Source of the DNA: Chelativorans sp. AA-79
GTDB lineage: Bacteria; Pseudomonadota; Alphaproteobacteria; Rhizobiales; Rhizobiaceae
Reading direction: 5' to 3'
Assembly: GCF_029457495.1 (NCBI RefSeq)
Contig: NZ_CP120361.1
Location: 4,232,001-4,296,000, forward strand
Length of the DNA: 64,000 nucleotides
A model generated the notes under the pieces. It was not told the DNA's origin and did no database searches. It saw nothing but the letters and a program-made list of their open reading frames with translations. Positions 18,361 through 62,598 of the stretch are shown piece after piece; within the stretch, counting starts at the first letter, position 1, and the number at the start of each line of letters is the position of its first letter. The translations under genes were made by a program, and so were the position numbers.

Positions 18361-18437
18361 GCGCCCGTAGCTCAGCTGGATAGAGCACCAGACTACGAAT
18401 CTGGGGGTCAGGAGTTCGAATCTCTTCGGGCGCGCCA
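18361..18437 (+). tRNA. tRNA-Arg (anticodon ACG)
   Basis: A complete 77-base cloverleaf can be folded: acceptor GCGCCCG/CGGGCGC, D arm GCTC/GAGC, anticodon stem CCAGA/TCTGG around loop CTACGAA (anticodon ACG), T arm AGGAG/CTCTT with TTCGAAT, discriminator G and an encoded CCA. Mobile-element genes begin about 200 bp downstream, so its 3' end is the probable attachment site of the island. Confidence 0.96.
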
Positions 18438-18484
18438 TTCAACTCTCTGAAATTCAACAGAAAAATGGGCCGATGCCAATATGG

Positions 18485-30726: not shown

Positions 30727-31961
30727 TCATAATGTTGCGTTTGATCGTCTGAAAACTGCCCAGAGCCCGACGAGCATCAGCCCACCGGCCAGTAAAAACG
30801 TCAGCCGCATCCCGTTCGCGATCGCAGCAGGGGTTGCCCCCTCGAAGTTGCTTGTACCAACGCCAAGAGCGAAAACGCCGCCCATCACGGACGCTCCCAG
30901 AATGAGGCCGAGGTTTCGCGACAGGCTGAGCAACCCCGACACCACGCCGCGCCGGTCTTTGGGAATATCCGCCATGACTGCCGTGTTGTTGCTGGCCTGA
31001 AAGAGCTGGTAGCCCGGCGTCAAAACGGCGATGGCCAGGATATATCCGACCGTGCCGAACTGTGCCGGCAGGGTTGCCAGAAGGAATGCACCGGCGGCGA
31101 GCATGGTCAGGCCGACCGCGAGAATGCTGTGAGTGCCCCATCTGTCGACGGCCTGTCCGGACGGCACGCCGCTGAAGATCGAGATCAGCGGCCCGATCGA
31201 CATGATCAGGCCGACTGGCATCTCGCTCAGGCCCAAGCCAATGCCGAGATAGAACGGGCCGACCACCAGCGTCGTCATCATGACGGCCGCGACAAGCAGG
31301 TTCACGGAAATATTTGGCAGCAGCCCTCTCGTCCATATCCACGCCACGCATGGTCCAGCCGACGGAGGTGCGGCCCGGCCCCTGTCGGATGGCAGTGACC
31401 TGAATGCCAGGATCAGGGCGAGCAGTGCGAGAGGAACCTGCGCGAGGAAAATACCCGGCCAACCGCTCGCCGATAGCAGCACGCCGCCGAGTGAGGGGCC
31501 GAGAGCTGTTCCGAGCGCCGACACCGTGCCCAGCAGGCCCATGGCGCGCCCGATGCGCTCCTCGCTCGCTGTTTCACGCGCGAGCGCAAGGGTCAACGTC
31601 ATCAGGAACGCCGCGCCGACGCCTTGGAGTGCTCTCGCCCCGATCAGAAGCCAAAGGTTCGAAGCCAGACCGCAAAGCAGCGAAGCCACGCAAAACAGAG
31701 CGAGGCCCGCAAGGTGCATGCGCGTCAGCCCATACAGGTCGCCAAGCCTTCCGACGAAGGCGACCGAGACAGTCATGGCCGCGAGATAGGTGATAACCAC
31801 CCATTGGACGTGGTGGAACGGCGCAGAGAACGCTTCAGCCAGCGTCGGCAGGGCAATATTGGCGATGCTCGTGCAAGCGACGCCAGCAGCATCGAGAGCG
31901 CCAATGTCACCGTGACGCCGCGGTCGGTTTCCCTCAATGCGGTCGATCCTGCTTGCTCCAT
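30727..31961 (-). pseudogene. MFS drug transporter with a frameshift in the first membrane helix
   Basis: The minus strand encodes an MFS (EmrB/QacA-like) transporter with GRLGDLYG after helix 2 and about 12 membrane segments, but in two frames. The natural start MEQAGSTALRETDRGV at 31961 reads VTLALSMLLASLA. Homology then continues as TSIANIALPTLAEAF in the next frame from about position 31875. A single missing base in the LA-TSIAN stretch explains this. It is either a real mutation or a sequence error; the downstream 380 residues look intact. It is divergent from a MerR-type regulator. Confidence 0.7.
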
Positions 31962-32008
31962 GCCCTTTTCCTCTTGTCGGAAACGCTGTGAGCAGGCAGA
32001 GTACGAAT

Positions 32009-32022
32009 TCAAGTCGACTTGA
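32009..32022. promoter_or_regulatory. Perfect palindrome between the MFS gene and the MerR gene
   Basis: TCAAGTCGACTTGA is a 14-bp perfect palindrome, flanked on the right by GG to give ACTTGAGG. It resembles MerR/SoxR-type operators, which have ACTTGAGG half-sites. It lies 9 bp before the regulator start, so autoregulation and control of the divergent transporter are likely. Confidence 0.5.
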
Positions 32023-32030
32023 GGTCAAGC

Positions 32031-32471
32031 ATGAAGTTTCTCGACATTGGCGAGGTGTCGACGAAGACCGGGATACGCCCTTCGGCGCTTCGCTATTACG
32101 AGGAGGTCGGGCTGATCTCTTCGGTCTCCCGCAACGGCCTGCGCCGCCAGTTCCCGTTTGAAGTGCTGCTGCAGCTAAAACTGATCACGATGGGCAAAAC
32201 GGCCGGCTTCTCGCTGGAAGAGATAGCAGGTATGTTCGGTAGAGACGGCACGCCGGAGCTGCCACGCGATGTACTGCATGCGAAAGCAGACGAGCTGGAT
32301 CGGAAGATTCGCGAACTCGCCGCGTTGAGGGACACATTGCGTCATGTTGCCGATTGTCCTGCACCCTCCCACATGGAATGCCCGACCTTCAGGCGCCTCG
32401 TGGACGTGGCCGGTCGGTGGGCCGGCACGCGTGCCGGGCATCCTAGGGCAAAAAGGGGCGGCAGATCATGA
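32031..32471 (+). CDS. MerR-family transcriptional regulator
   Basis: This 146-residue protein has an N-terminal MerR winged helix-turn-helix (around 1-70: FLDIGEVSTKTGIRPSALRYYEEVGL) and a dimerisation coiled coil (around 80-110). Its C-terminal tail carries two cysteines in DCPAPSHMECP. The cysteines do not form the SoxR CxxCxxxC-type cluster motif. It probably regulates the adjacent divergent MFS gene through the palindrome at 32009. The ATG at 32031 was preferred over an upstream TTG inside the palindrome. Confidence 0.85.
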   Translation: MKFLDIGEVSTKTGIRPSALRYYEEVGLISSVSRNGLRRQFPFEVLLQLKLITMGKTAGFSLEEIAGMFGRDGTPELPRDVLHAKADELDRKIRELAALRDTLRHVADCPAPSHMECPTFRRLVDVAGRWAGTRAGHPRAKRGGRS

Positions 32472-32578: not shown

Positions 32579-33083
32579 AGCGGAGCTCGTCGCCGTCATC
32601 GTCGATCTCTGCCTATAGCGCAACTGCCATCTGATCTCCTCCATTCGGCACATTGTCCGGCTGCCCTGGTCAGCCCCTTCAGTCTTCCTGCATGGAGTGC
32701 CGTGCATCGAACCCATTGAATGGAGATGCTACGGTGCCTTCCATCCCTCACTGCGATTGGCGGCCTTCGCTGTCCCGGCCCTTTCACCTGCGATGGGAGA
32801 TAGGGCGCCAGCACGTTGGAGAGCGGATCGTGCTGAACAGTTGAGTTTCGGAGCCATGCCCGATGGCCGGGCCGGCAAGGACGATGGGGCTGCTGTCGTC
32901 TCCGAGAAGCTCCGCCGCAGGACTAACCCCTCCGACTGACTGATCCCCTAAGCCTGAGCGGCTGCCGGCAGCAACCACCAAGATTCCGGCCGTGTTGCCG
33001 CTGAAGCGACTGCCCGCCCCACACCGGAACTTGGCGGCGAGCCTTCGGTTGCAACCGGCCTCCATCGGGCTTGGCCGGGGCTC
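32579..33083. other. About 500 bp without a supported gene
   Basis: Short frames here lack ribosome sites and have arginine-rich or incoherent products. The composition still resembles coding DNA in places, so decayed genes between the MerR regulator and ssb are possible. Confidence 0.4.
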
Positions 33084-33127
33084 GTCGGAGGGATGGTCCC
33101 TCGGACGGAAGCAACGGAGACAGAAAA
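33084..33127 (+). promoter_or_regulatory. Hairpin leader of ssb
   Basis: GTCGGAGGGA (33084-33093) pairs with TCCCTCGGAC (33097-33106) with one mismatch, followed by CGGAGACA with the ribosome site and the ATG. The CGGAGACA block is the same as in the ardC leader. Confidence 0.45.
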
Positions 33128-33532
33128 ATGCAGAACATCGTCATTCTCGCCGGCAACATCGGCCAGGACCCCGAGACCGTCACCACACAGGGCGGCACCC
33201 ACATCACTCGTTTCACGCTGGCCACCTCACGGCCCCGTTATGCCGACGGCAAGGTGCTCCGGGACGAGAACGGCTACCGGGTTCAGGACACCGAATGGCA
33301 CCGCATCACCTGCTTCAATGGCCTCGGCAAGACGGTCCAGGAACACTGCGGCAAGGGCATGAAGGTGCTGGTGCGCGGCCGCATCCACTACACGAAGTGG
33401 ACCGACCAGGACGGCAATGACCGCTACGGATGCGAGATCATCGCCGAGACGGTGGATTTCCTCAGCCGGGCCAAGCAGGCGGAAAGCCAGAGCAGCAGCC
33501 AACCCGACCACGATGACGAGATACCCTTCTGA
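33128..33532 (+). CDS. ssb: Single-stranded DNA-binding protein of the island
   Basis: This 134-residue SSB has one OB fold (NIVILAGNIGQDPE, EWHRITCFNGLGKTVQEHCGKGMKVLVRGR) and the acidic C-terminal tip DDEIPF that recruits other replication proteins. It is shorter than the usual chromosomal SSB because the glycine-rich linker is reduced. Conjugative elements carry their own SSB to coat the transferred strand. The start at 33128 fits the SSB N-terminus; the frame is open further upstream. Confidence 0.93.
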   Translation: MQNIVILAGNIGQDPETVTTQGGTHITRFTLATSRPRYADGKVLRDENGYRVQDTEWHRITCFNGLGKTVQEHCGKGMKVLVRGRIHYTKWTDQDGNDRYGCEIIAETVDFLSRAKQAESQSSSQPDHDDEIPF

Positions 33533-33603
33533 GCGGTTCGAATCGAGGCCCGGCGGCGCAAGCTGCCGGGCTCTCCTCATATTCGCACCCTTTCCGCTCG
33601 GGC

Positions 33604-34038
33604 CTAGCCGCAGGAGATGCTGGTGATCGCCCGAAAATCTTTGTCGTAGAACACGTTCATCCGCTCGCGGCCGAGATCCGATATCACCGCGCAGGTCGAA
33701 CATGCCAGGCGCCATGTGGCGCCGGCGGGCTTGTCGGGAAGAGCATCGAGCGGCTGGCCGACAAGGCGCTGAAACTGCGACGCCCGGCACTGGTCCCCAA
33801 AATAGTATTTGCGCGATCTGTCGGCGCTCTCGGCGATCCAGGTCATGGGATCAAGCGGATGATTGCGGATCGTGGAACCCTCCGGCGCCCAATAGGTGAA
33901 AGGCGGCGGCGGATCGGCCTCCATCACCACCTTCGGCTCAACAAGCAGCACAGGCTCGGCGTCCTGCGCCACGGCGCACCCCGACGCCGCGAGCACAGTT
34001 ATAACGACGACAACGGGTATTGCAGGAAGGAACTGCAA
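33604..34038 (-). CDS. Lipoprotein with a peptidase-inhibitor I78-like domain
   Basis: This 144-residue precursor has a lipobox AASGC at the end of its signal peptide (Cys21). A short Pro-rich segment follows. The C-terminal domain has GDQCRASQFQRLVGQPLDAL and closes with NVFYDKDFRAITSISCG, the pattern of I78 inhibitors such as those of secreted serine proteases. It is the only minus-strand gene in this part of the island. The nearby subtilase IetS is cytoplasmic, so a link to it is unlikely. Confidence 0.75.
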   Translation of the reverse strand: MQFLPAIPVVVVITVLAASGCAVAQDAEPVLLVEPKVVMEADPPPPFTYWAPEGSTIRNHPLDPMTWIAESADRSRKYYFGDQCRASQFQRLVGQPLDALPDKPAGATWRLACSTCAVISDLGRERMNVFYDKDFRAITSISCG

Positions 34039-34471
34039 TCCTGATCCTCCTGGACGGTATTGCGCTGGCCGCGCCTATCATTGGCCTTGAGACACCGGCT
34101 AGCCCGCAATCACGGCGTCAAAACGGCAACACGGCAGCGTTTTGGCCCCGCATCGACATGTTCGTAGGCCGCGCTGTTCGTGAACACCATGGTGACGCGG
34201 AAGACGTCGATCGACGGCACTATGATTGCAGATCAAGCCTTCGGGCAGCGCACCCAAGGGCATGTCCGGCTCCGGTTGCCGGGAAGCGAACCCGCTCTTT
34301 GAGGCTTACCTTGGTTCCAATCACGGCCTTCCACGATCAACCCCAAGGGGTCGGACTATGCAGAGCATGCCGCCGCTGCGGTGAACCTCAGCGGTGACCG
34401 CGGCCGCGCTTGAAACACATCGGCGCCTGTCGAGCGGGAAGTCCTCCCGCCTCAAAACAGGAGCCGGAACA
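34039..34471. other. 433-bp gap, nothing supported
   Basis: No frame with a convincing start or protein was found, and no strong repeat was seen. It may hold the promoter of the lipoprotein gene and of the small gene at 34472. Confidence 0.4.
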
Positions 34472-34639
34472 ATGTCCTTCCCAGATGCACAAGCCTTCGC
34501 CCTCAGCCTCGCCGACACCCTGATGGTCTCCATCGTCATCTTCCGGGCCGGCGACGGCACGCACTCGGTGGTACCCGCGCCCGAATATGACGGCGACGAG
34601 GATGAAATCGTCAGCGAGATCGATCCCTTCGCGCCCTGA
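34472..34639 (+). CDS. Small acidic hypothetical protein
   Basis: This 55-residue frame starts MSFPDAQAFALSLADTLMV and ends with an acidic run DGDEDEIVSEIDPFAP. CAGGAG lies about eight bases before the ATG, supporting translation. No family was recognised. Small acidic proteins near transfer regulators can be antirestriction or regulator-binding factors, but that is only a thought. Confidence 0.5.
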   Translation: MSFPDAQAFALSLADTLMVSIVIFRAGDGTHSVVPAPEYDGDEDEIVSEIDPFAP

Positions 34640-34783
34640 GCGCGAAGGAACTGTGCGCTCAGGGCGCCTTTGCCCCGCCGGCGTCGACGGGTGGCGCTGA
34701 CGGCTTCAGTTCCCAAAATGAAGAACGAATCCGCCGATTAACGCACATCAAAAACTATTCCGGCAGATCTGGCCATATCCGAT

Positions 34784-34818
34784 TACCTAGTATATTGGGT
34801 GGAAGTATATTAGGTAGA
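34784..34818 (+). promoter_or_regulatory. Duplicated operator upstream of the Xre regulator
   Basis: AGTATATTGGGTGGA (34789-34803) and AGTATATTAGGTAGA (34804-34818) are tandem 15-bp repeats with 13 identities. The flanks also form a dyad TACCTAGTATAT / GTATATTAGGTA. The block is A/T-rich in a GC-rich island and sits 16 bp before the regulator start, so it is a strong candidate for an autoregulatory operator with overlapping promoter. Confidence 0.6.
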
Positions 34819-34834
34819 CGGCGACTTCTCCCGC

Positions 34835-35047
34835 ATGAGCTTACGGGAGAGAGTCGCACGCAATCTGCGCCGGCTGAGACAGGAGAAATCCATCTCGCAG
34901 GAGGAGCTTGCCCATCGTGCCCAGATCAACCGCAATTATGTCGGCATGGTCGAACGCGAGGAATATTCGATCTCTGTCGACAAGCTGGAGAAGCTTGCCG
35001 ATGCCCTTGGCGTCGATCCGGCGGAGTTCTTCCGGAGCGACGCCTGA
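34835..35047 (+). CDS. Small Xre-family regulator (QseC-like position)
   Basis: This 70-residue protein is almost entirely an HTH_3 domain: LRERVARNLRRLRQEKSISQEELAHRA, INRNYVGMVEREEYSISVDKLEKLADALGV, then a short acidic end. In Mesorhizobium ICEs an Xre-type protein, QseC, controls the antiactivator gene qseM. Here the order is Xre regulator, DUF2285 antiactivator and FseA-like activator, all on the same strand. The functional match is inferred from this context; the sequence alone only shows an Xre regulator. Confidence 0.82.
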   Translation: MSLRERVARNLRRLRQEKSISQEELAHRAQINRNYVGMVEREEYSISVDKLEKLADALGVDPAEFFRSDA

Positions 35048-35258
35048 TGCGCCCCGCCCGCCACGCATGGGAAAAGCAAAATATTCGTGGATATGGCGCC
35101 GCCGAAAACTCCCGATCACCGCAAAAACTGCGCCAATTCTCGCCATGGCGGCATGGTTTCATTCCGCGATTGCCGGATGCTTGCTGTCGCCAAGCTGTTG
35201 CGTTCATGATCGATAAAGCATCTATGAACAACACATGGGAGGACGTAAGGACAGGCGG

Positions 35259-35522
35259 ATGAACAAGCCCGACTTCCAGGACAGCCCGCCGCTGACGGTT
35301 CGGGTGAATGCCTACGATGAAGCGCACCTCGCCACCTACCTGCGCCTGCTGGACGCCGACGAGGAAGGCGCCGACTGGCGTGAAGTGGCGGAAATCGTCT
35401 TCGGTCTCGACGTTGCCGCCAATCCGGAGCACGCCAAACGCGTTCACGACAGCCATCTCGCCCGCGCCCGCTGGATGACCGAGAAGGGCTATCGCCACCT
35501 TCTCGAACCCCGCATGCAGTAA
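35259..35522 (+). CDS. qseM: DUF2285 protein, QseM-like antiactivator
   Basis: This 87-residue single-domain DUF2285 protein contains VNAYDEAHLATYLRLLDAD, GADWREVAEIVFGLD and HLARARWMTEKGYRHLL. DUF2285 is a variant helix-turn-helix domain. In ICEMlSymR7A the stand-alone DUF2285 protein QseM binds and inactivates the activators TraR and FseA. Size and context next to a split FseA support the same role. The ATG at 35259 was preferred over an upstream frame start at 35235. Confidence 0.8.
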   Translation: MNKPDFQDSPPLTVRVNAYDEAHLATYLRLLDADEEGADWREVAEIVFGLDVAANPEHAKRVHDSHLARARWMTEKGYRHLLEPRMQ

Positions 35523-35675
35523 CCGGTAGCCGTAAGCTGCTCCGCGTCGGAATCGATGACGCCGGAATGCTCAGCCGACGAAACAACAGCATTCCGATTA
35601 TCTGTCTATACCATCCTCAGCCCACCCCAATATTCGAATCAGCCTGAAGCCATCGATTGAGGCGGGGAGGAAGAC

Positions 35676-35999
35676 TTGAAACCACTGCACGACTGGCGAT
35701 CACCCCAATTCGAGGAACAACTGGGTCGTCTTGACCGCGGCGGTGTCGCCTTCGAGTTTCTGCGCCGCAACAAGGAATACCGGCGAGACTATGCCGAGAC
35801 ACTGGCAAGGATCGCCTCCGGCGGCACGGATGAGGCAGCAGAGATCGAGCGCCTATCCTGTCGCTGGGGGCTTTCCTTTCCCGGCGGACCCTTCTGTATC
35901 TGCCGCCTCCGCCCGCCCAATCTGGCGGGCCATACACTTCCCTGCCACACTCATTGTCAGAACTGTGCCCGACGGTTTCGAGGGATTGCCACTCCCTGA
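35676..35999 (+). CDS. fseA: FseA-like excision activator, N-terminal reading frame (Msi172-like)
   Basis: This frame starts at TTG with GGGGAGG six to ten bases upstream and encodes WRSPQFEEQLGRLDRGGVAFEFLRRNKEYRRDY, the DUF6499 transcription-regulator domain. After RWGLSFP (codon 69) homology stops; the frame then reads a 38-residue cysteine/arginine-rich tail that looks non-native. The rest of the protein continues in the +1 frame. In ICEMlSymR7A the equivalent ORFs msi172 and msi171 are joined by programmed +1 frameshifting to make FseA, which activates rdfS and so excision. The same two-frame layout is seen here. Confidence 0.8.
   Translation: MKPLHDWRSPQFEEQLGRLDRGGVAFEFLRRNKEYRRDYAETLARIASGGTDEAAEIERLSCRWGLSFPGGPFCICRLRPPNLAGHTLPCHTHCQNCARRFRGIATP
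35871..35886 (+). promoter_or_regulatory. Candidate +1 ribosomal frameshift site in fseA
   Basis: The zero frame reads CTT TCC TTT CCC GGC. Skipping G35883 after the CCC codon gives GCG GAC CCT and joins RWGLSFP to ADPSVSA, which is the expected uninterrupted family sequence. The pyrimidine run allows tRNA re-pairing one base forward (CCC to CCG). The exact slip codon is an inference. Confidence 0.6.
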
Positions 36000-36462
36000 T
36001 CCGCAAACGCTGCCCGCCGATGGCCAGCTTGCCAGGGATGGTCTCCACGCCCTTGTCGCTGACGATGATGGCGATCATCGACTGTGGTTTCCCGATGGTG
36101 ACGCACCGACCAAGTCGGCCATCGTTCTGCCCATCGACGAGCACTTCTTCTGGCGTCACCGTAATGCGGGCCGCTTTGTGCGAAGGCTTGAGGGAAAGCG
36201 ATCCGGCCTCTTGCCGCGCGCACAGCGCCTCACTGCCTTCCAGACCCATCGCGCAGCTCTCATGCTGCGTGCCTGGGACGGTATGGAAGCTGGCGCGTCG
36301 CGCCGCTTGATCGCTTCCGTCCTGCTTAATAGACAGGTAGAAACGTTGCGCGCCATCGAATGGCAGAACGCGTCGGAGCGCCGACGGCTCGCCCGCATCC
36401 TCAAGGCAGCGCGCGGACACATTGAGGGCGGCTATCTGCGCTGGCTGCGAATTCGCGGGTGA
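35884..36462 (+). CDS. fseA: FseA-like excision activator, +1 frame C-terminal part with DUF2285 (Msi171-like)
   Basis: This frame encodes ADPSVSAASARPIWRAIHFP followed by a long region ending in a DUF2285 domain (AQRLTAFQTHRAALMLRAWDGMEAGASRRLIA...ERRRLARILKAARGHIEGGYLRWL). It lacks its own convincing start and ribosome site near the junction and overlaps the N-terminal frame by 116 bp. Joined to the first 69 codons it gives a 261-residue protein, which is why both parts are read as one gene product. The coordinates give the segment used after the shift. Confidence 0.75.
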   Translation, partial: ADPSVSAASARPIWRAIHFPATLIVRTVPDGFEGLPLPDPQTLPADGQLARDGLHALVADDDGDHRLWFPDGDAPTKSAIVLPIDEHFFWRHRNAGRFVRRLEGKRSGLLPRAQRLTAFQTHRAALMLRAWDGMEAGASRRLIASVLLNRQVETLRAIEWQNASERRRLARILKAARGHIEGGYLRWLRIRG

Positions 36463-37058
36463 TCCGCGTGGGCAATTGTTTTCGACACCTAGGCGTCCTG
36501 CCAACCCGGATGGGCGTGCATCTCCGCCGACTCGCAGTGTTGCAGCTTGTGGCGTTGGAAACGTCTCAGATTTTTGGGAGTTTAGCGGCAGCAGAACACC
36601 AATATTGTGAAATGAACAGGTAGGTTTCGCACGGATTCTCTGGGGATTCTGCCCTCACCTGGCCAATGTGCTTCGGCTGCTTCGCGCCCCCACTTCAGCC
36701 GTTGGGGCAAACCTTGCCTCCCCCTAGAACCGGAAATCGCGGGGAACAGAATGTAGGCCGCCGTTCTCCGCGGCTCCCTCGAGAGGATTGGAGGAGAACC
36801 ATTCACTCGGCAGCGGAGATCCGAGGCACCCGCAGCACCGACGACCACCTAGATAAGTGCACGAAAGCGCCGTTGGCACCATCACTCAGAGATGTGTATG
36901 GTGTGGTCCTGATTCGATATTCAATATTGCTGGCATCATGGCTGGTGGGAACAGTGATCTGCGCTTGTAGACGCCGCATTTTACTCTGAGCCGCATAAGC
37001 TTCTTATGGTCAATTGCGGCGAGCGCTGCTACCCTCGCGAAAAATTGGTGGAGGCAGG
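36463..37058. other. 596-bp gap between fseA and ietA, no supported gene
   Basis: GC content drops here and no frame shows a plausible start plus domain. It probably marks the junction where the ietAS pair was inserted into the backbone and contains the ietA promoter. Confidence 0.4.
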
Positions 37059-38051
37059 ATGGCAAGGGGCGAGCTGATGAAAAAGCTGCTCGCAAGTTAC
37101 GGCCGCGAGGACGATTTCCGTGCGGTCGTGGAGCAGATCATTGCGGACGAGGAGAAAAAAAATAACCGAGTGCTCGCGCGCAGCCTGCGCAAGACCCTCG
37201 ATAATCTTGGCTCGCATCCGCAAACAGGCGGCCTATCCCGTCTTGTTCCGTTTCCTGATGAAGCAAAAGACTTCATCCAGCGGATCGAGCCACGGCACGG
37301 GCCGCAGGACATCATTCTTTCGCGCGGGAACATTGAGCTCTTCGTTGGCCTGATCCGTGAATTTCGGCAAGCGGACCGGATCAGGCGACATGGCCTTCCG
37401 GTTCGGTCAAAGCTGCTCTTCTGCGGTCCACCAGGGTCCGGGAAGACCCTGTGTGCCGAGGTCTTCGCCAATGAACTCGGTCTACCGTTCTTCCACGTCC
37501 GGCTCGATAGCCTGATCTCGTCCTATCTAGGGGAAACCGCCACCAACATCCGCAAGACGTTCGAGTTCGCGAGGAGGCAACCTTGCGTGCTGTTTTTCGA
37601 CGAATTCGACGCAATTGCACGCTCACGCGAAGAGACCGGTGAGCACAGCGAACTTCGGCGGGTCGTCAACAGCCTGTTGATCTTCATCGAACAGATCGAA
37701 CCACAGGGCTTTCTGATCGCGGCAACGAACCTCGATGCGCACCTTGATCCAGCCGTATGGCGACGCTTCGACGAGATTGTGTGGTTCGAGCAGCCCGACG
37801 ACAAGATGATCCGGAAGTATCTTGAGCATGCATTCCGCAATGTGAAGGTGACATTTGATCCCTCTAGCTATTCAAACCAACTCCAAAGCTATTCCTACGC
37901 TGACCTAGAAAGGGTCTGCGTACAGGCGATAAAGCTCTCCGTTCTCAATGGGAACAGGGCGGTATCCGATGCGGATTTCAGGCACGCCATGCGTGATGCG
38001 GAACGCCGTAGAATGCGGAAGCAGAAACTGGAAGATCAGACCCGGGAGTAG
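37059..38051 (+). CDS. ietA: AAA+ ATPase IetA (antitoxin/regulator partner of a subtilase)
   Basis: This 330-residue AAA+ protein has Walker A GPPGSGKT at 123-130, Walker B LFFDEFDAI around 178-186, a sensor-1 ATN (AATNLDAHLDPAVWRRFD) and the arginine finger region. A helical N-terminal segment of about 100 residues precedes the ATPase core. With the next gene it forms the IetAS pair, first described for plasmid stability and incompatibility in Agrobacterium and later as an anti-phage system. GGAGG precedes the ATG. Its four-base distance to ietS means co-translation. Confidence 0.88.
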   Translation: MARGELMKKLLASYGREDDFRAVVEQIIADEEKKNNRVLARSLRKTLDNLGSHPQTGGLSRLVPFPDEAKDFIQRIEPRHGPQDIILSRGNIELFVGLIREFRQADRIRRHGLPVRSKLLFCGPPGSGKTLCAEVFANELGLPFFHVRLDSLISSYLGETATNIRKTFEFARRQPCVLFFDEFDAIARSREETGEHSELRRVVNSLLIFIEQIEPQGFLIAATNLDAHLDPAVWRRFDEIVWFEQPDDKMIRKYLEHAFRNVKVTFDPSSYSNQLQSYSYADLERVCVQAIKLSVLNGNRAVSDADFRHAMRDAERRRMRKQKLEDQTRE

Positions 38052-38054
38052 GTT

Positions 38055-40385
38055 ATGCCCCGGCACGAACATCTGCCGCTGCTGCGGCTTCCTGAGACTT
38101 TGGAGCGGCGGAAGACAGGGTATCCAGGCCCGACGCCGTGGCGTGGCAGTGGCTATGGCGGTCAGGTCCGCCGGCAGGTTGAGGCCGCGATTCAGACACA
38201 GCAGCAGAACCGTCCGGCGCAGTTCATCGATCCGTCGCTGATTCTGCGAGTTCGGATGCAGGGTATGCTTCTCGAGCCTGATTGGGAAGCACTGGGACTG
38301 ACACTGCTCTCGAGCGACGATGACCGCAACATCATCCTCTTTTCGTCGCAGGGCGACCTGACTGCCTTCCTGCAGCGCCTGGACGCCTACGATGGCCCGA
38401 TCCCGGATGGCCAGCAGGGCAGACGTTATGAAGGGTTTGTCACTAGGATCGAGAACATCGGCACGCTCGAGCCCCGGGACCGCCTCGGCATGCGGATCAG
38501 GGAGGCTGGGTTCACGGAGGCAACGGACCTTCAGAATGATGAGGTCTATACGGTTGATATCGAACTATGGGATTTCGGAACCCGTCTGGCCCGGGAACGC
38601 AAGGCCCGGCAGATCGAGGATTTCATCACCGGGCAGAATGATGAGGTGTTCGATGTCTATCTCGGACCGTCAATTACGCTGATGCGAGTGCGTGCCCGGG
38701 GACAGACACTTCGGCCTCTGCTGTCTGTACCGGAAGTGGCCTTCATTGACTTGCCACCTGTGCCCGATATCGAAGCGGCCGACCTGGTTCAGATGGAGCT
38801 GGATGACGCTCCGGAGATACTGCCGCCGGATGAAAACGCACCGGTGATCGGTGTGCTGGACAGCGGCGTCAATGATCACCCTTTCCTTGAAGGTGCGATC
38901 CTAGAGCGGTTGGCTTTCCCAGCCGAACTTGGCACTGCGGACGTCTGGGGCCATGGGACACGAGTGGGCGGTGCCGCACTTTACGGGGATCTGAGAGATC
39001 GTCTCGGAGAAGTGCGAATTCAGCCGGTGGGCCGTCTGGTCTCGGCGAAGGTTGTGGGCAACAATGGCAGGTTCTACGAGCGGAGAACCCTTCCGACGCA
39101 GATGCGCGAGACCATTATACGCTTGCGGCAGGATTATGGCTGCCGCATCTTCGTGATGTCCCTAGGCGACGTGCGGGCGCGCAATGAACCTGGCCGGGTC
39201 GGCCCGTGGGCGGCCACGCTCGATGAACTCGCGCGTGAACTCGATGTGATGATTTTTGTCTCCACCGGTAACCGTGCGCCGCGAAGCGGAATGGCAGTGG
39301 AGCAGGGTATCACGCACTACCCTGGATATCTTCTGGAACCGGCCAACCGCCTTTGTGAGCCGGCTGGTGCGGCAAACATTGTGACAGTCGGATCGCTTGC
39401 CAACGGGACGGGGCTCGGGGCCAGACATGAACTCGACGCCCACGTTCGGCCAATCACTGGCGCTCTTGAGCCCTCGCCGTTCTCACGGGCGGGCCCGGGG
39501 GCGGGAGGAATCCGCAAGCCCGATTTCGTGGACGTCGGGGGCACGATGGTGTTCGATGCGCCCTCGGCTAGCCTTCAGTGGGCCCCGCACATCCCAGAAG
39601 CAGGGATTATCACCCTTAACCATGAATACCTGCGACAGCTGATCACCAGCGGCACGGGAACGTCATATGCCGCGCCGATCCTCGCCAACAAGGCGGCCGC
39701 GCTGCTGCGGCTCTTTCCCCACGCTTCCGCCAACCTGATCCGAGCGCTGCTTGCTGGAGCGGCCTCGGTACCGGAGGAATGCGAGGCCAGGTTGAGGGGC
39801 ATGGATGCCGCTGACAAAATGCGCATCTGTGGCAACGGTTTGGTGGATGTTCTCCGGGCAGCCTATTCGGACGATCACCGCGTGGTGCTATACGCGGAGG
39901 ATCGGCTCGCAATCAATCATTTCGCTGTCTATCGGGTACCCATCCCGCAGGAATTTCAGACCAACGGTAGGCGGACCATCCGAGTTTCGCTGGCCTTCGA
40001 TCCACCGGTTCGTCGAACACGGGCAGAGTATATTGGTACAAAGTTGAACTTTCGTCTCCTACGGGGCTGCCCCGCGCAGGAGGTGTTCGCACATTTTCGA
40101 GCACGTACAGCGGATGAGGGTGACCCGCCGGACGTTCCGAACAGATTCCGATGCGATTTGAAGCCCGGACCCCAAAGTCGCGACGGACATACGCTTCAAA
40201 CCGCAGCGCAAACATTCGTGCAGGACACCACTAACTATGGTGACGAATACTACCTGGTCGTCCGCTGCGCCGGAGGCTGGGCGGAGGAGCAGGAGGTCGA
40301 TCAGCGCTTCGCAGTGGTGGTCGAGCTGGAACACCAGCCTGCCGTCCAGCTATACGCGAGGCTGAGGCAGCGCGTTCGGGTATAA
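38055..40385 (+). CDS. ietS: Subtilisin-like serine protease IetS
   Basis: This 776-residue protein has no signal peptide, so it acts in the cytoplasm. The peptidase S8 domain carries the full triad: Asp269 in VLDSGVN, His300 in WGHGTRVGG and Ser537 in GTGTSYAAP. About 260 residues precede the protease domain and 200 follow it. In IetAS the protease is thought to be the toxic effector and the ATPase its controller. Domain order and gene order match that system. Codon use is slightly less GC-rich than the backbone, consistent with separate acquisition. Confidence 0.9.
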   Translation: MPRHEHLPLLRLPETLERRKTGYPGPTPWRGSGYGGQVRRQVEAAIQTQQQNRPAQFIDPSLILRVRMQGMLLEPDWEALGLTLLSSDDDRNIILFSSQGDLTAFLQRLDAYDGPIPDGQQGRRYEGFVTRIENIGTLEPRDRLGMRIREAGFTEATDLQNDEVYTVDIELWDFGTRLARERKARQIEDFITGQNDEVFDVYLGPSITLMRVRARGQTLRPLLSVPEVAFIDLPPVPDIEAADLVQMELDDAPEILPPDENAPVIGVLDSGVNDHPFLEGAILERLAFPAELGTADVWGHGTRVGGAALYGDLRDRLGEVRIQPVGRLVSAKVVGNNGRFYERRTLPTQMRETIIRLRQDYGCRIFVMSLGDVRARNEPGRVGPWAATLDELARELDVMIFVSTGNRAPRSGMAVEQGITHYPGYLLEPANRLCEPAGAANIVTVGSLANGTGLGARHELDAHVRPITGALEPSPFSRAGPGAGGIRKPDFVDVGGTMVFDAPSASLQWAPHIPEAGIITLNHEYLRQLITSGTGTSYAAPILANKAAALLRLFPHASANLIRALLAGAASVPEECEARLRGMDAADKMRICGNGLVDVLRAAYSDDHRVVLYAEDRLAINHFAVYRVPIPQEFQTNGRRTIRVSLAFDPPVRRTRAEYIGTKLNFRLLRGCPAQEVFAHFRARTADEGDPPDVPNRFRCDLKPGPQSRDGHTLQTAAQTFVQDTTNYGDEYYLVVRCAGGWAEEQEVDQRFAVVVELEHQPAVQLYARLRQRVRV

Positions 40386-40812: not shown

Positions 40813-41079
40813 ATGCAGGACAAAACCGACAGCAACTGGCCGCGCTTCATGCGCACACCTGAAGCAGCCCGTCTCCTCGGCCTGTCTCCCCGCACGCTGG
40901 AAAAATATCGCTGCGAAGGCATGGGGCCGATCTATCACAAGCTGGGCGGCCGCGTGGTCTACACGGTTACCGATCTTGTTGCATGGATCGATGCCTGCGC
41001 CCGTCGGTCCACCTGCGAGCCGCTGCTCCCAAGCCTTTCCGCACCGCGGGACGGGAAGGGGCCGGACGGCAGCTGTTGA
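40813..41079 (+). CDS. rdfS: AlpA/RdfS-type excisionase (recombination directionality factor)
   Basis: This 88-residue protein has a MerR-like winged helix of the AlpA/excisionase family: FMRTPEAARLLGLSPRTLEKYRCEGMGPIYHKLGGRVVYTVTDLVAWIDA. GGAGG sits 7 bases before the ATG. In related ICEs RdfS switches the integrase from integration to excision and also affects the transfer genes. Here it heads the run rdfS-repA-MTase-DUF2840-traF, all on the same strand, as expected for that operon. Confidence 0.85.
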   Translation: MQDKTDSNWPRFMRTPEAARLLGLSPRTLEKYRCEGMGPIYHKLGGRVVYTVTDLVAWIDACARRSTCEPLLPSLSAPRDGKGPDGSC

Positions 41080-42970: not shown

Positions 42971-43461
42971 CGACTGACAGCCGCAGCGCCAGACAGCCGA
43001 AAGACCGCACACTGGTCGAACTGACCTGGCGCGAGAGGAAGATCGAGCACTGGATACGCTTCGGCCGCATCGCCGAAGATCAGCGCCTTGACCGCCATCG
43101 GCGCGTCGTCAGCCTCCAGCCGGGCAGCATCTTCGCTTTCGTCCGCTGGGCCGGGAACGAGCATGGCACGATCATCTCGCGCATCGACATCGTGCGCGCT
43201 GTGGCCGCCGGTGAGCTATTTCAGACATTGCCCTTCGTGCGCCCTGGCGGCGAGATTCTGCTCAGGCTGACCGGCTGGCCGAAGGTCGAGACAGTGCTGA
43301 AAGCCATCGACGCGATCGAGGCGCTCGGCATCGATCCGGCCGATGTCGCGCCGGATCACTGGCGACACATCCACAACCGCATCAGCGTCAACGAGCCGTT
43401 CCGCGCCTATGGCCGCGAGCAGCACCGCGCCTGGCTGCGCCGCCGCGAGGTGACGCGATGA
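42967..43461 (+). CDS. DUF2840 domain protein
   Basis: This 164-residue soluble protein has the DUF2840 features LVELTWRERKIEHWIRFGR, PGSIFAFVRWAGNEHGTIISRIDI and LPFVRPGGEILLRLTGWPKV. DUF2840 genes are nearly always found just before traF in alphaproteobacterial ICEs. The function is unknown, with a role in transfer assumed. It overlaps by ATGA on both sides, so MTase, DUF2840 and TraF are translationally coupled. Confidence 0.88.
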   Translation: MTTDSRSARQPKDRTLVELTWRERKIEHWIRFGRIAEDQRLDRHRRVVSLQPGSIFAFVRWAGNEHGTIISRIDIVRAVAAGELFQTLPFVRPGGEILLRLTGWPKVETVLKAIDAIEALGIDPADVAPDHWRHIHNRISVNEPFRAYGREQHRAWLRRREVTR

Positions 43462-44018
43462 CCAGCCGCCGCCTGACGATCCTCTCAATGCTCGCCGGGG
43501 TGGCTCTGGTCGCCACACCAGCATGGCATCGGCCCGATATCCGCTTCATCTGGAATGCCTCCGCCAGCGTGCCGGTCGGCCTCTACCGCATTGTACCTGC
43601 GGATCACATCGACGTCACCGACCTGGCCGTCGTCATGCCGCCCCACGAGCTCGCGGCTTTCCTCGGCGCGCGCGGCTACCTGCCGCGCGGCCTACCGCTG
43701 ATCAAGCGCGTTCTGGCACTCGGCGGCACCGAGATTTGCCGGCGCGGCAGCGTGATCATCGCCTACGGCACGAGCTACGGAACAGCTCGCGACCACGACG
43801 CGCGCGGCCGGCCGCTGCCTGCCTGGCAAGGCTGCCGGACGCTCGGCAACGGTGAAGCCTTCTTCATGAACTGGGACAGTCCCGACAGTTTCGACAGCCG
43901 CTATGTCGGGCCATTTCCCCTCACAACAGTCGTCGGCCGCGCGATCCCAATATGGACGACCGACGATCCCGACCCGGCCGCGGAAGGCTTCCGCGAGCCG
44001 GCTTCCGACGAGCCGTGA
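43458..44018 (+). CDS. traF: Conjugative transfer signal peptidase TraF
   Basis: This 186-residue protein of the S26 signal peptidase family has an N-terminal membrane segment (around 7-22). The catalytic serine lies in WNASASVPVGLYRI and the lysine in PLIKRVLALGG; the closing box is FFMNWDSPDSFDSRYVGPFP. TraF matures the TrbC pilin by cyclisation during pilus assembly. Its substrate TrbC is not in the window. It starts with an ATGA overlap. Confidence 0.92.
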   Translation: MTSRRLTILSMLAGVALVATPAWHRPDIRFIWNASASVPVGLYRIVPADHIDVTDLAVVMPPHELAAFLGARGYLPRGLPLIKRVLALGGTEICRRGSVIIAYGTSYGTARDHDARGRPLPAWQGCRTLGNGEAFFMNWDSPDSFDSRYVGPFPLTTVVGRAIPIWTTDDPDPAAEGFREPASDEP

Positions 44019-45486: not shown

Positions 45487-45620
45487 AAAGCCGCACATCG
45501 CGGCTTTGACGGTCGGTTGGTTTTGCTGGCTTCGCCGGGGTTTTGCGCACATCGCGCGCACTCAGCGCGATGTGCGCTGCCTCATTTTGTTGAGTGCTTT
45601 CAGCACAAACCGCACATCGC
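45487..45620 (+). other. Candidate origin of transfer (oriT) upstream of the relaxase
   Basis: The 240-bp gap before the relaxase carries a perfect 13-bp inverted repeat GCGCACATCGCGC (45545-45557) / GCGCGATGTGCGC (45565-45577) with a 7-base loop. It also carries AAAGCCGC/GCGGCTTT (45487-45494 and 45500-45507) around ACATC. CGCACATCGC recurs at four places, one inverted. Inverted repeats beside the relaxase gene are the hallmark of oriT. The nick site cannot be read. Confidence 0.55.
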
Positions 45621-45633
45621 AGGTTTTTGCCCC

Positions 45634-47376
45634 ATGAGCCGCGACGACGATTTCCGCGTCCGGCCCGGCCGCATCCGCTCCTCAAAGGCGCAGCGCGCAA
45701 AACCCTTCGTCGCCCAGGCGCTCGCCGCCGCGCAGAAGGCCGGCGGGCGCGTCTCGCGCTCCGGCAAGATCACATCATGCCATGGTCGGGGACCGAGTTT
45801 CGCGCGCGGCCGTGTAGCCAGCGTGCGCGCCAACCGTTTCATCACCAGCCGCTCGCGGCTCTGCACCGTCAAGGCGCTCGTGGTGCGCAACAGAGGTCAG
45901 CGCGGCCCGCTCGCCCGGCACCTCAATTACCTGCGCCGCGATGGCGTCACGCGTGACGGCGAAAAGGCCCTCATGTTCGGCCCGGATACCGACGACGCCG
46001 ATGCCAGGGAGTTTTCTGACCGCTGCAAGGACGACCGGCACCATTTCCGCTTCATCGTCTCGCCCGAGGACGCCACCGACATGGAGGACCTGAAGCGCTT
46101 CACTCGCGAGTTGATTGCGCAAGCCGAAAAGGATCTCGCCACAAGACTCGACTGGCTGGCCGTCGATCATTGGAACACCGACAATCCACATGTCCATGTC
46201 ATCGTCCGCGGCCGCACCGACGACGGCCACGACCTCGTGATCGATCGCGACTATATCAAGAACGGCTTGCGCGATCGCGCCCAGGACATGATCACCCTGG
46301 AACTCGGTCCCCGAACCGATCTCGACATCAGTCGCTCTCTTGAGCACCAGATCGAGGCCGAGCGCTGGACGCAGCTCGACCGGCAGCTTGTCCGCGACGC
46401 CAACGAACACGGTGTCATCGACGTGGCGCCGTCACCAGATCGCCAGCCCGACGAGTACCTCACCCAGAAGGTCGGGCGGCTGCGTCATCTCGAACGGCTG
46501 GGTCTCGCTGGGACGATCGGCCCCGGCCAGTGGATCATTGCGGAGGAAGCCGAACCCACCTTGCGGGAACTCGCAACCCGCAACGACATCATCAAGCGCA
46601 TGCACCGGGCGCTCACCGAACGTGGCATTGAGCGTGGCGCGGCCGACTACGTCATCTCCAGCGAAGCTCATGACGAGCCGATCATCGGGAGGCTGGTCGA
46701 ACGTGGTCTCGAAGACGAGCTGCGCGGCACCGCCTATGCTGTGGTCGACGGCATTGACGGCCGCACACATCATATCGGCCTTCCCAACATCGAGGCGGCC
46801 GGTGACAGTGCGCCCGGTTCCATCGTCGAGCTGCGGTCCTTCGAGGATTCTCGTGATGAGCGTCGTGTTGCGCTTGCGGTCCGCTCCGACCTCTCAATAG
46901 AGGCGCAGACCACAGCGGAAGGCTCGACCTGGCTGGACCGCCAACTCATCGCCCGCAATCCCGCCGATCTTGGCAGTGGCTTCGGCCTGGAGGTGAAGCG
47001 GGCAATGGAAGAACGCACCGAGCATCTGATCGAGGAAGGACTTGCCCGGCGCGAGGGCCAGCGCATTGTTTTCGCCCGCAACCTGCTCGGCACATTACGC
47101 GAGCGCGAGCTGGACGCGCTCGGCCAAAAACTCGCGACCGAGACCGGCATGCCGTTCCAGAAATCCGCCGCAGGCGAGTATGTCTCTGGCACATACCGGC
47201 AGCGTTTCGCTCTCTCCTCCGGCCGCTACGCCATGATCGACGACGGGCTCGGCTTCAAGCTCGTGCCCTGGACGCCGTCGGTCGAGAAAAATCTCGGCCA
47301 GCACATTTCCGGCGTGGCTCGAGGCGACGGGGGCGTCGACTGGTCTTTCGGACGCAAGCGGGGGCTGGGACTGTGA
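45634..47376 (+). CDS. rlxS: Relaxase RlxS-like (DUF3363)
   Basis: This 580-residue relaxase nicks oriT and pilots the single strand. The relaxase domain (around 60-230) has the metal-binding histidines in DHWNTDNPHVHVIV (His186 and His188) and LNYLRRDGVTRDGEKALMFG. The C-terminal half matches DUF3363. The N-terminus is strongly basic. ATG 45634 begins MSRDDDFRVRPGRIRSS, as in relatives; an earlier frame start would run through the oriT repeats. It lies upstream of traG, separated by a Phd/VapC pair. Confidence 0.92.
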   Translation: MSRDDDFRVRPGRIRSSKAQRAKPFVAQALAAAQKAGGRVSRSGKITSCHGRGPSFARGRVASVRANRFITSRSRLCTVKALVVRNRGQRGPLARHLNYLRRDGVTRDGEKALMFGPDTDDADAREFSDRCKDDRHHFRFIVSPEDATDMEDLKRFTRELIAQAEKDLATRLDWLAVDHWNTDNPHVHVIVRGRTDDGHDLVIDRDYIKNGLRDRAQDMITLELGPRTDLDISRSLEHQIEAERWTQLDRQLVRDANEHGVIDVAPSPDRQPDEYLTQKVGRLRHLERLGLAGTIGPGQWIIAEEAEPTLRELATRNDIIKRMHRALTERGIERGAADYVISSEAHDEPIIGRLVERGLEDELRGTAYAVVDGIDGRTHHIGLPNIEAAGDSAPGSIVELRSFEDSRDERRVALAVRSDLSIEAQTTAEGSTWLDRQLIARNPADLGSGFGLEVKRAMEERTEHLIEEGLARREGQRIVFARNLLGTLRERELDALGQKLATETGMPFQKSAAGEYVSGTYRQRFALSSGRYAMIDDGLGFKLVPWTPSVEKNLGQHISGVARGDGGVDWSFGRKRGLGL

Positions 47377-48328: not shown

Positions 48329-50356
48329 ATGCCCGCCAGTCGTGTCATGTGGGGCCAGATCGTCATCGTCTTCACCATCGTCCTCGTCGCTGTCTGGGGC
48401 GCAACGCAATGGACAGCGTGGCGGCTCGGTTTCCAGGCCCAACTCGGACAGCCATGGTTCGAGATTGTCGGCCTGCCGTTCTATCCGCCGCCGGCTTTCT
48501 TCTGGTGGTGGTATTTTTACGACGCCTATGCCCCGCACATCTTTTATGAAGGCGCCGCCATCGCGGCGTCGGGCGGCTTTGTCGCCATCGCCGCCGCCAT
48601 CCTCATGTCGATCTACCGCGCCCGCGAGGCGAAGGACGTCCGCACCTTCGGCTCCGCCCGGTGGGCCGGGCGCAAGGAGATTTCCGATGCCGGCCTGCTC
48701 GGCGACGATGGGGTCGTGCTCGGCCGCTACGAGAAGGATTACCTCCGCCACGACGGCGCCGAGCATGTCCTGTGCTTTGCACCAACGCGCTCCGGCAAAG
48801 GTGTCGGCCTCGTCGTGCCGACCCTGCTCACCTGGCCGGGGAGTTGCATCGTCCACGACATCAAGGGCGAGAACTGGGATCTGACTGCTGGCCTGCGATC
48901 CCGCTTCGGCCGCGTGCTCCTCTTCGATCCGACCAACGCGAAGTCGGCCGCCTACAATCCCCTGCTCGAAGTCCGGCGCGGCGAATGGGAGGTGCGCGAT
49001 GTTCAGAACGTCGCCGATGTACTGGTCGATCCCGAGGGTTCGCTGGAAAAACGCAACCACTGGGAAAAGACCAGCCATGCGCTGCTGGTCGGCGCCATCC
49101 TGCATGTTCTCTACGCCGAGAAGGACAAGACGCTCGCCGGTGTTGCCGCCTTCCTGTCCGATCCGCGCCGGCCGATCGAGTCGACCTTGGCCGCCATGAT
49201 GACCACGCCGCACTTGGGCGAGAAAGGGCCGCATCCGGTCATCGCCAGTGCTGCGCGCGAGCTGCTCAACAAATCCGACAACGAGCGCTCCGGCGTGCTT
49301 TCCACCGCCATGTCCTTTCTTGGTCTCTACCGCGATCCTGTAGTGGCCGCCGTCACCCGCCGCTGCGACTGGCGCATTACCGACATCGTGTCCGGCAAGA
49401 AGCCGACGACGCTCTACCTCGTCGTGCCCCCCTCCGACATTTCCCGCACCAAGCCGCTCGTGCGCCTCGTGCTTAACCAGATCGGCCGGCGACTGACAGA
49501 GGATCTGCACGCGAAGGATCGTCGTAACCGGTTGCTTTTGATGCTCGACGAGTTTCCCGCGCTCGGCCGCCTCGACTTCTTCGAGTCGGCGCTCGCCTTC
49601 ATGGCAGGCTACAGCATCAAGGCATTCCTCATCGCCCAGTCGCTGAATCAGATCGAGAAGGCATACGGCGCCAACAACTCCATCCTCGACAATTGCCACG
49701 TCCGCGTCAGCTTCGCCACCAATGACGAGCGCACGGCCAAGCGTGTTTCGGATTCTCTCGGCACGGCCACCGAGATGCGCGCCATGCAGAACTATGCCGG
49801 CCACCGGCTGGCGCCCTGGCTCTCCCACCTGATGGTCTCGCGCTCCGAAACCGCGCGTCCGCTGCTCACCCCCGGCGAGGTCATGCAACTCCCGCCGGAC
49901 GACGAGGTCGTCATGGTCGCCGGTATTCCGCCGATCAGGGCCAAGAAGGCGCGCTACTATGAGGATGTGCGGTTCAAGGAGCGCCTGCTGCCGGTGCCGA
50001 AAAACCCGAATGCCGGTTTCCTGCCCGAGCGCGACAACTGGTCGGCACTTGCCTCTGTCGCCGCTCCCGTCGTGTCAGGCAATGCCTCTGCCAAGGCGCC
50101 GGCGACCAACGGCTCTACGAAGACCGCGGCGGCGAAGCAGGACGACGATCCGCTCAACGCCGGCCTGCGCCGCGAACCCGGCCTCGAGCCGCACAAGGAC
50201 ATCGCTCCGGAGAAGGAGCAGGCCCCGGTCAATGAATTCGATCCGGATGCCGACGAGCCCGAACGCGACTCTGCCGCCAACCGCGCGGTCGTGCGCGACA
50301 TGCGGCAGACAGCACGACAGATCTCGATGAACCCCGGCGATGGCATGGAGCTTTGA
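48329..50356 (+). CDS. traG: Conjugative coupling protein TraG/VirD4
   Basis: This 675-residue protein is the ATPase linking the relaxosome to the type IV secretion channel. Two N-terminal membrane helices (about 10-25 and 60-92) precede the ATPase core, with Walker A PTRSGKG at 152-158 and Walker B LLLMLDEFPALG. The C-terminal 130 residues are Pro/Ala/Asp-rich and disordered. GCGGAGG precedes the ATG. It is intact, so the relaxation/coupling part of the element looks functional. Confidence 0.95.
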   Translation: MPASRVMWGQIVIVFTIVLVAVWGATQWTAWRLGFQAQLGQPWFEIVGLPFYPPPAFFWWWYFYDAYAPHIFYEGAAIAASGGFVAIAAAILMSIYRAREAKDVRTFGSARWAGRKEISDAGLLGDDGVVLGRYEKDYLRHDGAEHVLCFAPTRSGKGVGLVVPTLLTWPGSCIVHDIKGENWDLTAGLRSRFGRVLLFDPTNAKSAAYNPLLEVRRGEWEVRDVQNVADVLVDPEGSLEKRNHWEKTSHALLVGAILHVLYAEKDKTLAGVAAFLSDPRRPIESTLAAMMTTPHLGEKGPHPVIASAARELLNKSDNERSGVLSTAMSFLGLYRDPVVAAVTRRCDWRITDIVSGKKPTTLYLVVPPSDISRTKPLVRLVLNQIGRRLTEDLHAKDRRNRLLLMLDEFPALGRLDFFESALAFMAGYSIKAFLIAQSLNQIEKAYGANNSILDNCHVRVSFATNDERTAKRVSDSLGTATEMRAMQNYAGHRLAPWLSHLMVSRSETARPLLTPGEVMQLPPDDEVVMVAGIPPIRAKKARYYEDVRFKERLLPVPKNPNAGFLPERDNWSALASVAAPVVSGNASAKAPATNGSTKTAAAKQDDDPLNAGLRREPGLEPHKDIAPEKEQAPVNEFDPDADEPERDSAANRAVVRDMRQTARQISMNPGDGMEL

Positions 50357-51856: not shown

Positions 51857-52870
51857 TTGGACAGCAAGACGGAACATGAATTGCTGCAGGAAGCGACAGG
51901 CTGGATTCTGAGGCTGGAAAACGCCCATCGAGATTCGCCGCTGTTTCAGCAGTTCAATGACTGGCTCACCTCCTGCGAGGAACATCGCAAGGCGTGGGAA
52001 CGCGCCAATAAGACCTGGCAAGTCCTTGGCGCGATCAACCTTGCTCCCGGCCAGGAAGGCTCGAGCGATGTCCCGCAGCGATCGAAACCGCCGATCTCGC
52101 CTGCCGATCCGACCCGATCCGCGCGCCCTATTGTGGCGCGCAAATTATATCGTCGGCCGGCCGCCGTGGTTGCGGCCGTCGCAGCCGCTTGCATCCTTTG
52201 GTTCACCGTACCGGCGATGCTCCTTGCCTTCCGTGCGGATTACCGCACGGCGACCGGCGAAACCGAAGTGGTCCACATGGCTGACGGATCCACAGTCGAG
52301 CTCGGGGGTGCGAGTGCGATTTCCACGGATATCGACACGACCCAGCGCCGCGTGACGCTTCTGGCCGGCTCGGCCTTCTTCGATGTCACGCCCGACGCAG
52401 AAAGACCGTTCATCGTCGATGTCGAAGGACTCGAGGTACGGGTACTGGGCACCGCCTTCGATATCCAGCTCTCCTCCGCGAGCACAAGTGTCGCTCTTCT
52501 TCGAGGCTCGGTTGAGGCCGTTGCCGAAACGGGAAATCAGACCTCTGAACATCTTGAGCCCGGCCAGATGCTCGTGCTCGATCACGCTACGGACGCCGTC
52601 ACGATCAACAAGATGCCCCTTGAAGACATCGGCTCATGGCGGGAGGGCAAGATCTTCCTCGTGAACACGACTGTCGGGGAAGCCGTGGAACTGATCCAGC
52701 GCTATCACGACGCATGGGTCTCGATACCCGATGCAACACTCGCCAACCGGAGGGTCAGCGGCCTCTTCGACCTCCGCGACCCCGATCGTGCGCTCGCCAC
52801 GCTCGTCGAGCCTTTCGGCGGAAGGGTGCGGTCGATTACGCCGTTCGCCCGCGTCATTTCCCGTCTTTGA
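51857..52870 (+). CDS. fecR: FecR-family anti-sigma/signal transducer
   Basis: This 337-residue protein has a DUF4880 cytoplasmic N-terminus (around 8-50, ATGWILRLENAHRDSPLFQQFNDWLT). One membrane helix follows around 98-118, then a periplasmic FecR domain (RTATGETEVVHMADGSTVELGG...RRVTLLAGSAFFDV) and a C-terminal STN-like segment (VNTTVGEAVELIQRYHDAWV). It relays the state of the receptor to the sigma factor. The start is TTG 51857; there is no better codon nearby. Confidence 0.9.
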   Translation: MDSKTEHELLQEATGWILRLENAHRDSPLFQQFNDWLTSCEEHRKAWERANKTWQVLGAINLAPGQEGSSDVPQRSKPPISPADPTRSARPIVARKLYRRPAAVVAAVAAACILWFTVPAMLLAFRADYRTATGETEVVHMADGSTVELGGASAISTDIDTTQRRVTLLAGSAFFDVTPDAERPFIVDVEGLEVRVLGTAFDIQLSSASTSVALLRGSVEAVAETGNQTSEHLEPGQMLVLDHATDAVTINKMPLEDIGSWREGKIFLVNTTVGEAVELIQRYHDAWVSIPDATLANRRVSGLFDLRDPDRALATLVEPFGGRVRSITPFARVISRL

Positions 52871-52878
52871 ATATATCT

Positions 52879-62592: not shown

Positions 62593-62598
62593 TGCGCC

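Follow-up and report, generated by a model that had tools for sequence, protein, structure and literature searches.

Split fseA in a transfer-control module

The window analysed here, a stretch of 64,000 nucleotides from Chelativorans sp. AA-79, contains a gene for an FseA-like activator whose two domains lie in different reading frames, preceded by genes for a QseM-like protein and an Xre regulator. Is the split gene still read as one protein, and do these genes reproduce the QseC/QseM/FseA circuit of ICEMlSymR7A, as the original prediction proposed? Pfam recovered all parts of the module between window positions 34835 and 36462, and the following features, in window coordinates, are discussed below.

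34784..34816, plus strand: presumed operator before the Xre gene, inverted repeat TACCTAGTATA / TATATTAGGTA, conserved in same-strand Xre loci
34835..35047, plus strand: putative Xre repressor of the same-strand (S) type, outside the QseC position (PF01381, E 8e-16)
35259..35522, plus strand: QseM-like antiactivator, a lone DUF2285, net charge -5 (PF10074, E 6.5e-10)
35563..35596, plus strand: inverted repeat CGGAATGCT-N16-AGCATTCCG in the qseM-fseA gap; the relative L070 retains its inner 7-base arms
35676..35879, plus strand: fseA 5' part, frame 0, DUF6499 (PF20109, E 1.4e-20)
35865..35870, plus strand: Shine-Dalgarno (SD)-like UGGGGG, 6 nt 5' of the slip codon (comparison of split members)
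35877..35880, plus strand: probable slip tetranucleotide UUU_C, +1 (comparison of split members)
35881..36462, plus strand: fseA 3' part, frame +1, DUF7012-DUF2285, net charge of DUF2285 +15 (PF22792, E 5e-12; PF10074, E 7e-23)
40813..41079, plus strand: RdfS-like HTH_17 protein, expected FseA target (domain match and downstream position)

The 5' part of fseA begins with TTG at 35676, preceded by GGGGAGGA, and its frame runs to a stop at 35999. The N part through the slip codon (68 aa) and the +1 part (193 aa) together give 261 residues, the product length that had been predicted. As in the FseA family, DUF6499 is followed by DUF2285, the junction is a +1 shift at a site that comparison finds conserved, and DUF2285 is positively charged. 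As in the QseM family, to which binding of the FseA DUF6499 and of TraR is ascribed, the upstream protein is an acidic DUF2285 without DUF6499. Counts of charged residues, which are not a surface model, gave relatives similar values, with a median of -4 for QseM (86 matches) and +12 for the FseA DUF2285 (132 members); this fits the acidic antiactivator and basic activator that have been published (PMC10359603). The domains, the third-position bias in both frames, the census of relatives, the register of the junction, the charges and the rdfS-like gene downstream make it very likely that 34835-36462 controls the transfer of an FseA-type ICE, as a module of the FseA/QseM frameshift kind.

At C1:2.416 Mb and C1:5.075 Mb, this genome holds two more modules with QseM and a split fseA, each with an rdfS-like gene; the three parallel FseA/QseM circuits could cross-talk. 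A QseM-like DUF2285 gene at C1:1685204-1685425 has no DUF6499 match nearby; its product could inhibit other circuits.

A same-strand Xre regulator and its presumed operator

In ICEMlSymR7A, qseC and qseM are divergent (PMC5882170). The window Xre gene lies upstream of qseM on the same strand, and we found no divergent Xre gene beside qseM in the window. We surveyed the Xre layout in 69 loci (the flanks of the named loci and the window), 68 of which could be placed, with single window queries that miss distant homologues. A divergent Xre gene upstream of qseM was found in 23/68 loci, five of which also have a same-strand Xre gene further up, and only a same-strand Xre gene in four (the window, L070, L091 and L104); the window query found no qseM match in 30 of the 68 (22 + 5 + 3). 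The window Xre protein is 99% identical to that of L070 and 66-75% identical to 11 further same-strand copies, whereas its identity to most divergent copies is 44-54% (lowest 33%). It is only 38-39% identical to the same-strand copies of L080, L082 and L087, and therefore not every same-strand Xre belongs to this group.

Same-strand copies also share the presumed operator. Across the 13 same-strand loci of the operator survey (L080, L082, L087 and L077 lie outside it), the half near the gene occurs 8 nt before the open frame in all 13 (at most one mismatch), and the far half occurs at 30 nt in 11 (in L091 at 15 nt; L079 is without it). Neither half was found in the three divergent-only loci, and the window holds no further copy with fewer than two mismatches.

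Could the window Xre still be a QseC orthologue whose gene was inverted? Its distance from fseA would suit this (-1051; divergent genes mostly lie at -1000 to -1130, with a range of -913 to -1327), as would its 44-54% identity to most divergent genes. We consider this clearly unlikely, as the protein is much closer to the same-strand copies, several of which coexist with a divergent gene, and carries their inverted repeat. The window Xre neither diverges from qseM nor groups with the divergent Xre proteins. Pairwise identities, in a comparison that does not extend to the QseC of ICEMlSymR7A, thus point to a member of a same-strand paralogue group rather than to QseC. The predicted circuit therefore stands for its FseA and QseM parts and fails for its QseC part. 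The same-strand Xre may repress itself, and qseM is perhaps read from the same transcript. The module suggests that such a circuit can exchange its repressor half, and it supplies a new candidate operator.

The +1 relation of the two parts is conserved

The nearest relative of the module, from Phyllobacterium phragmitis 1N-3 (L070; best of 80 named loci taken from 495), has the same split, and its DNA is 89.7% identical to window positions 32857-36597. It shares the Xre-QseM-split fseA block, the inverted repeat before Xre and the slip element; unlike the window, it has ATG at the site of the TTG start of fseA. Between the two sequences, the N part in frame 0 differs at 4/3/12 first, second and third codon positions (9 synonymous and 6 non-synonymous codons), and the C part in frame +1 at 10/8/37 (34 synonymous codons, 18 non-synonymous). 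Reading the C part in either of its other frames gives synonymous/non-synonymous counts of 8/43 and 9/45. The third-position bias of each part in its own frame therefore indicates purifying selection on both.

To this pair we added a census of 166 loci, which included the best 80 of the 495 named loci, the two further copies of this genome and the window. Among the genomes of the class, PF20109 was found in 25 of 385; the corresponding figures are 24 of 61 for near relatives and 43 of 398 for the phylum. The window's genome is included in each set, and up to 30 loci per search entered the census. The parts were located with two custom HMMs, both trained on split members, so that distant unsplit members that they miss go uncounted. 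Removal of eight exact duplicates from 164 N-domain matches left 156. The DUF2285 part follows in the +1 frame in 135 of these (including the window and the two own-genome copies, which are split at the same codon), in the same frame in 10 (one of them, L143, with an intervening stop) and in the other frame in one (L194, whose C part is itself broken). The remaining 10 have no C-part match within 330 nt; L210 and L214 among them are same-frame further on. This domain-based census supersedes one based on open-frame length (107 '+1' of 121), which had put five genes into the class 'both' because their frame 0 happens to be open.

The +1 frameshift of FseA is thus conserved and almost certainly programmed, judging from sequence comparison. 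Both the exact +1 shift and the reading of the split as deliberate, which the original prediction had based on conservation of this layout elsewhere, are supported by L070, by selection in both frames and by the 135 of 156 matches with the same relation.

A probable slip element, UGG-GGG-N6-UUU_Y

Of the 135 +1 members, 133 have the WG motif and could be scored for the slip site. The slip codon is TTT in 132 of them (TGT in L104). Its spacing is the usual one in 132, with a shift to the next codon in one, and the next base is always a pyrimidine (C in 126, T in 7). Conservation of the split site among homologues, which had been suggested as a check, hence extends to the nucleotide level. In the printed DNA of the two unscored members, L020 has TGT and L074 has TTT-C after W-R-L. 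The GGG codon of UGGGGG is present in 107/133 split members and 0/10 same-frame members, and TTT in 3/10 of the latter (L086, L143 and, one codon later, L063); these differences have Fisher p values of 4e-7 for GGG and 5e-9 for TTT, uncorrected for kinship. Elsewhere in 107 of the split genes, Phe is encoded by TTT in 26% of cases and Gly by GGG in 11%. When 132 members were clustered at 50% C-part identity, TTT was found throughout in 37 of the 38 clusters and a pyrimidine followed in all 38. By comparison, the codon after TTT varies: it is CCC in 59/133, CGC in 53 and another in 21 (CGT in 6, the remainder 15), and never a stop.

As TTT_Y is near invariant and the codon after it is variable, we place the slip at UUU_Y, positions 35877-35880, one codon before CCC-G, and define the conserved element as UGG-GGG-N6-UUU_Y; comparison makes this placement highly probable. 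UUU_Ynn has been described as especially prone to +1 shifts in bacteria (PMC5009743), and the UGGGGG adjoining the shift has been remarked on before (PMC10359603). The original prediction had put the join at CCC-G, where tRNA-Pro would re-pair from CCC to CCG. Such re-pairing is possible in the window and yields the identical protein, with Pro following Phe either way, so that the window alone fits both sites equally, and CCC is the commonest codon after TTT. Comparison favours TTT-C: CCC_G is distinctly improbable, as 74 of 133 members carry another codon, most of which would presumably be unable to re-pair in +1, and TTT_Y is held near invariant even though TTT is a minority Phe codon elsewhere in these genes.

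A natural one-frame relative of FseA, with an open frame of 274 codons and a QseM-like gene upstream, was seen at 7503-8255 of L086; it keeps TTT-C and has GGA where split members have GGG. As a further candidate, we considered a conserved stimulatory RNA structure 3' of the slip, and rejected it: folding of the window's 81 nt beat shuffled sequences (z -2.9), which was not so in L070 (z -0.4) or in the own-genome copy L008 (z -1.0).

Read with the one-base skip, residues 8-9 counted from W are D-P in 98/133 members. D-P occurs at the same distance in six of 12 same-frame sequences (L064, L101, L209, L210, L212 and L214) and not in the other six (L030, L032, L033, L063, L086 and the broken L143). 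This register gives the junction moderate, independent support. It also bears on whether the C part starts on its own, so that two separate partner proteins are made. The original prediction held that the second part has no start; this is roughly right in that no obvious ribosome-binding site was seen by eye, but the C frame does contain TTG at 35731 and an in-frame GTG further in, and 65/133 relatives have a +1-frame ATG between -30 and +20 codons of the slip. Independent initiation is nevertheless very improbable: the other 68 have no such ATG, the D-P register matches half of the same-frame homologues, and the choice of rare codons at the slip element would require another cause. That the split reflects a sequencing error or a recent indel that inactivated the gene of this strain, which would agree with the open frame 0 up to 35999 and with two domains in different frames, is extremely unlikely: the sense of the split is shared by L070 and every other +1 member, nearly all with TTT there, both frames are under selection and two own-genome copies share the split codon.

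Input and targets of the circuit

The original prediction noted that TraR/TraI genes lie outside the window and that the input to the circuit may differ. We found no LuxR/LuxI match on the rest of the element either, which supports this. Matches occur elsewhere in the genome only, LuxI-type at C2:42 kb and C1:3.175 Mb and LuxR-type at C2:41-44 kb, C1:3.08 Mb and C1:3.17 Mb. A phmmer search with proteins of this genome, which included a positive control, found neither near fseA in 80 named loci (best of 495; 47 with full 10-kb flanks), a weak negative. The search for autoinducer-binding proteins came up empty in three of 10 host genomes of related modules (those of L079, L084 and L116); the genome of L079, assembled from a metagenome, may be incomplete. 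The input to FseA-type circuits is probably not always quorum sensing, and a LuxR from elsewhere in the genome may act on this module.

On the output side, an rdfS-like gene lies downstream of fseA in 60/68 loci. In the window it is 4.35 kb from fseA, behind an AAA-ATPase/subtilase pair (37014-40385) without a DNA match in L070; this pair looks like cargo, and we take it to be possibly a defence-type pair. We sought an FseA box before rdfS as a pair of inverted hexamers next to the -35 with a spacing of 15/16 bp, and several scans found no shared box in the group of the window, L070 and L071. One candidate with 15-bp spacing lies at 40655 but is weaker in L070, where the interval before rdfS is longer and does not align with the window. 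Before fseA itself, the inverted repeat at 35563-35596, taken as GAATGCT-N16-AGCATTC, has FseA-box spacing, occurs once in the window and, among 62 loci, only in the window and L070. The stretch that holds it matches L070 at 95% identity, compared with 89.7% over the whole block. This repeat is a possible regulator site for fseA.

Proposed mechanism and relation to known systems

The scheme proposed here builds on features read from the DNA: the domains and their frames, selection on both frames, the slip element, the inverted repeat before Xre and the ICE context. Ribosomes on the DUF6499 part would pause over the SD-like UGGGGG. Peptidyl-tRNA-Phe on UUU would then re-pair with UUC, one base further 3', before the next codon (CCC) is filled, so that some ribosomes go on in the +1 frame to make full-length FseA (~261 aa) and others end at 35999. 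FseA, whose DUF2285 is positively charged, would activate rdfS (40813) and the transfer genes, and the acidic DUF2285 protein QseM would bind the DUF6499 part and block FseA. Xre may repress its own promoter through 34784-34816, perhaps setting the level of an xre-qseM transcript. Going further, a self-repressing same-strand Xre with its own operator might have replaced the divergent QseC/QseM switch in an element that is not quorum-gated, leaving the UUU_Y shift as a main physiological gate on transfer. We regard this combination as rather unlikely; if true, the efficiency of the shift could track how quickly the next codon is filled, tying transfer to the translation or starvation state.

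This kind of frameshift is already known from the FseA family, ~61% of whose 4709 homologues are reported as frameshifted (PMC10359603), and the window adds a member. Like ICEMlSymR7A of Mesorhizobium japonicum, the element encodes a DUF6499/DUF2285 activator (there FseA, Msi172-Msi171) with a +1 frameshift beside a UGGGGG-encoded WG and an acidic lone DUF2285 antiactivator (QseM), and combines rdfS-like, S26 peptidase, RlxS-like relaxase, traG and trb genes on one element. Unlike ICEMlSymR7A, it has a same-strand Xre instead of a divergent QseC and no traR/traI, its rdfS is separated by cargo, the scans found no FseA box, and its presumed attachment site is a tRNA-Arg rather than a tRNA-Phe gene.

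The +1 frameshift of prfB (RF2) also has an internal SD-like stimulator before the slip (PMC5009743). Window fseA shares such a stimulator 5' of a +1 slip. Its slip codon UUU_Y differs in having no stop next (0/133), and its SD-to-slip spacing is 6 nt, whereas that of prfB is 3 nt.

In the literature searched, which lies apart from the 2015 PNAS paper on FseA frameshifting, we met neither a tight UUU_Y definition with an unsplit control nor a same-strand Xre with an operator, and we found no paper on QseC, QseM and their operator in the literature searched. The module is a clear addition to the FseA/QseM class, on a large ICE, and UGG-GGG-N6-UUU_Y defines the frameshift element sharply enough to be put to the test.

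The probable ICE and its cargo

Relaxase, coupling protein and type IV secretion genes were all found on the element, the trb genes at about C1:4297-4307 kb, next to the following features of the window.

18361..18437, plus strand: tRNA-Arg(acg), whose 3' half, at about 18392-18439, presumably serves as left attachment repeat (direct repeat)
43458..44018, plus strand: S26 signal peptidase, TraF-like by position (domain match)
45517..47376, plus strand: RlxS-like relaxase (DUF3363), scoring 588 bits against RlxS, for which the NCBIfam cut-off is 850
48329..50356, plus strand: TraG-type coupling protein (domain match)

At C1:4433417-4433480, the tRNA-Arg 3' half recurs as an imperfect direct repeat. 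Beside it, a partial frame weakly matches tyrosine recombinases (E 7e-6, below cut-off) and is unlisted by the PF00589 search. This suggests an ICE of ~183 kb at the tRNA-Arg gene, with its left 45 kb in the window.

The element also carries an ArdC-like protein, a RepA-like protein and SLT. At 30727-32471, an MFS efflux-like transporter, which reaches the cut-off of none of the 25 NCBIfam models listed for it, lies beside a MerR regulator, at a place without a DNA match in L070. Iron and haem uptake genes occupy 51857-63967, encoding FecR, a TonB receptor, ABC and HlyD exporters, haem oxygenase and ExbB/ExbD/TonB.
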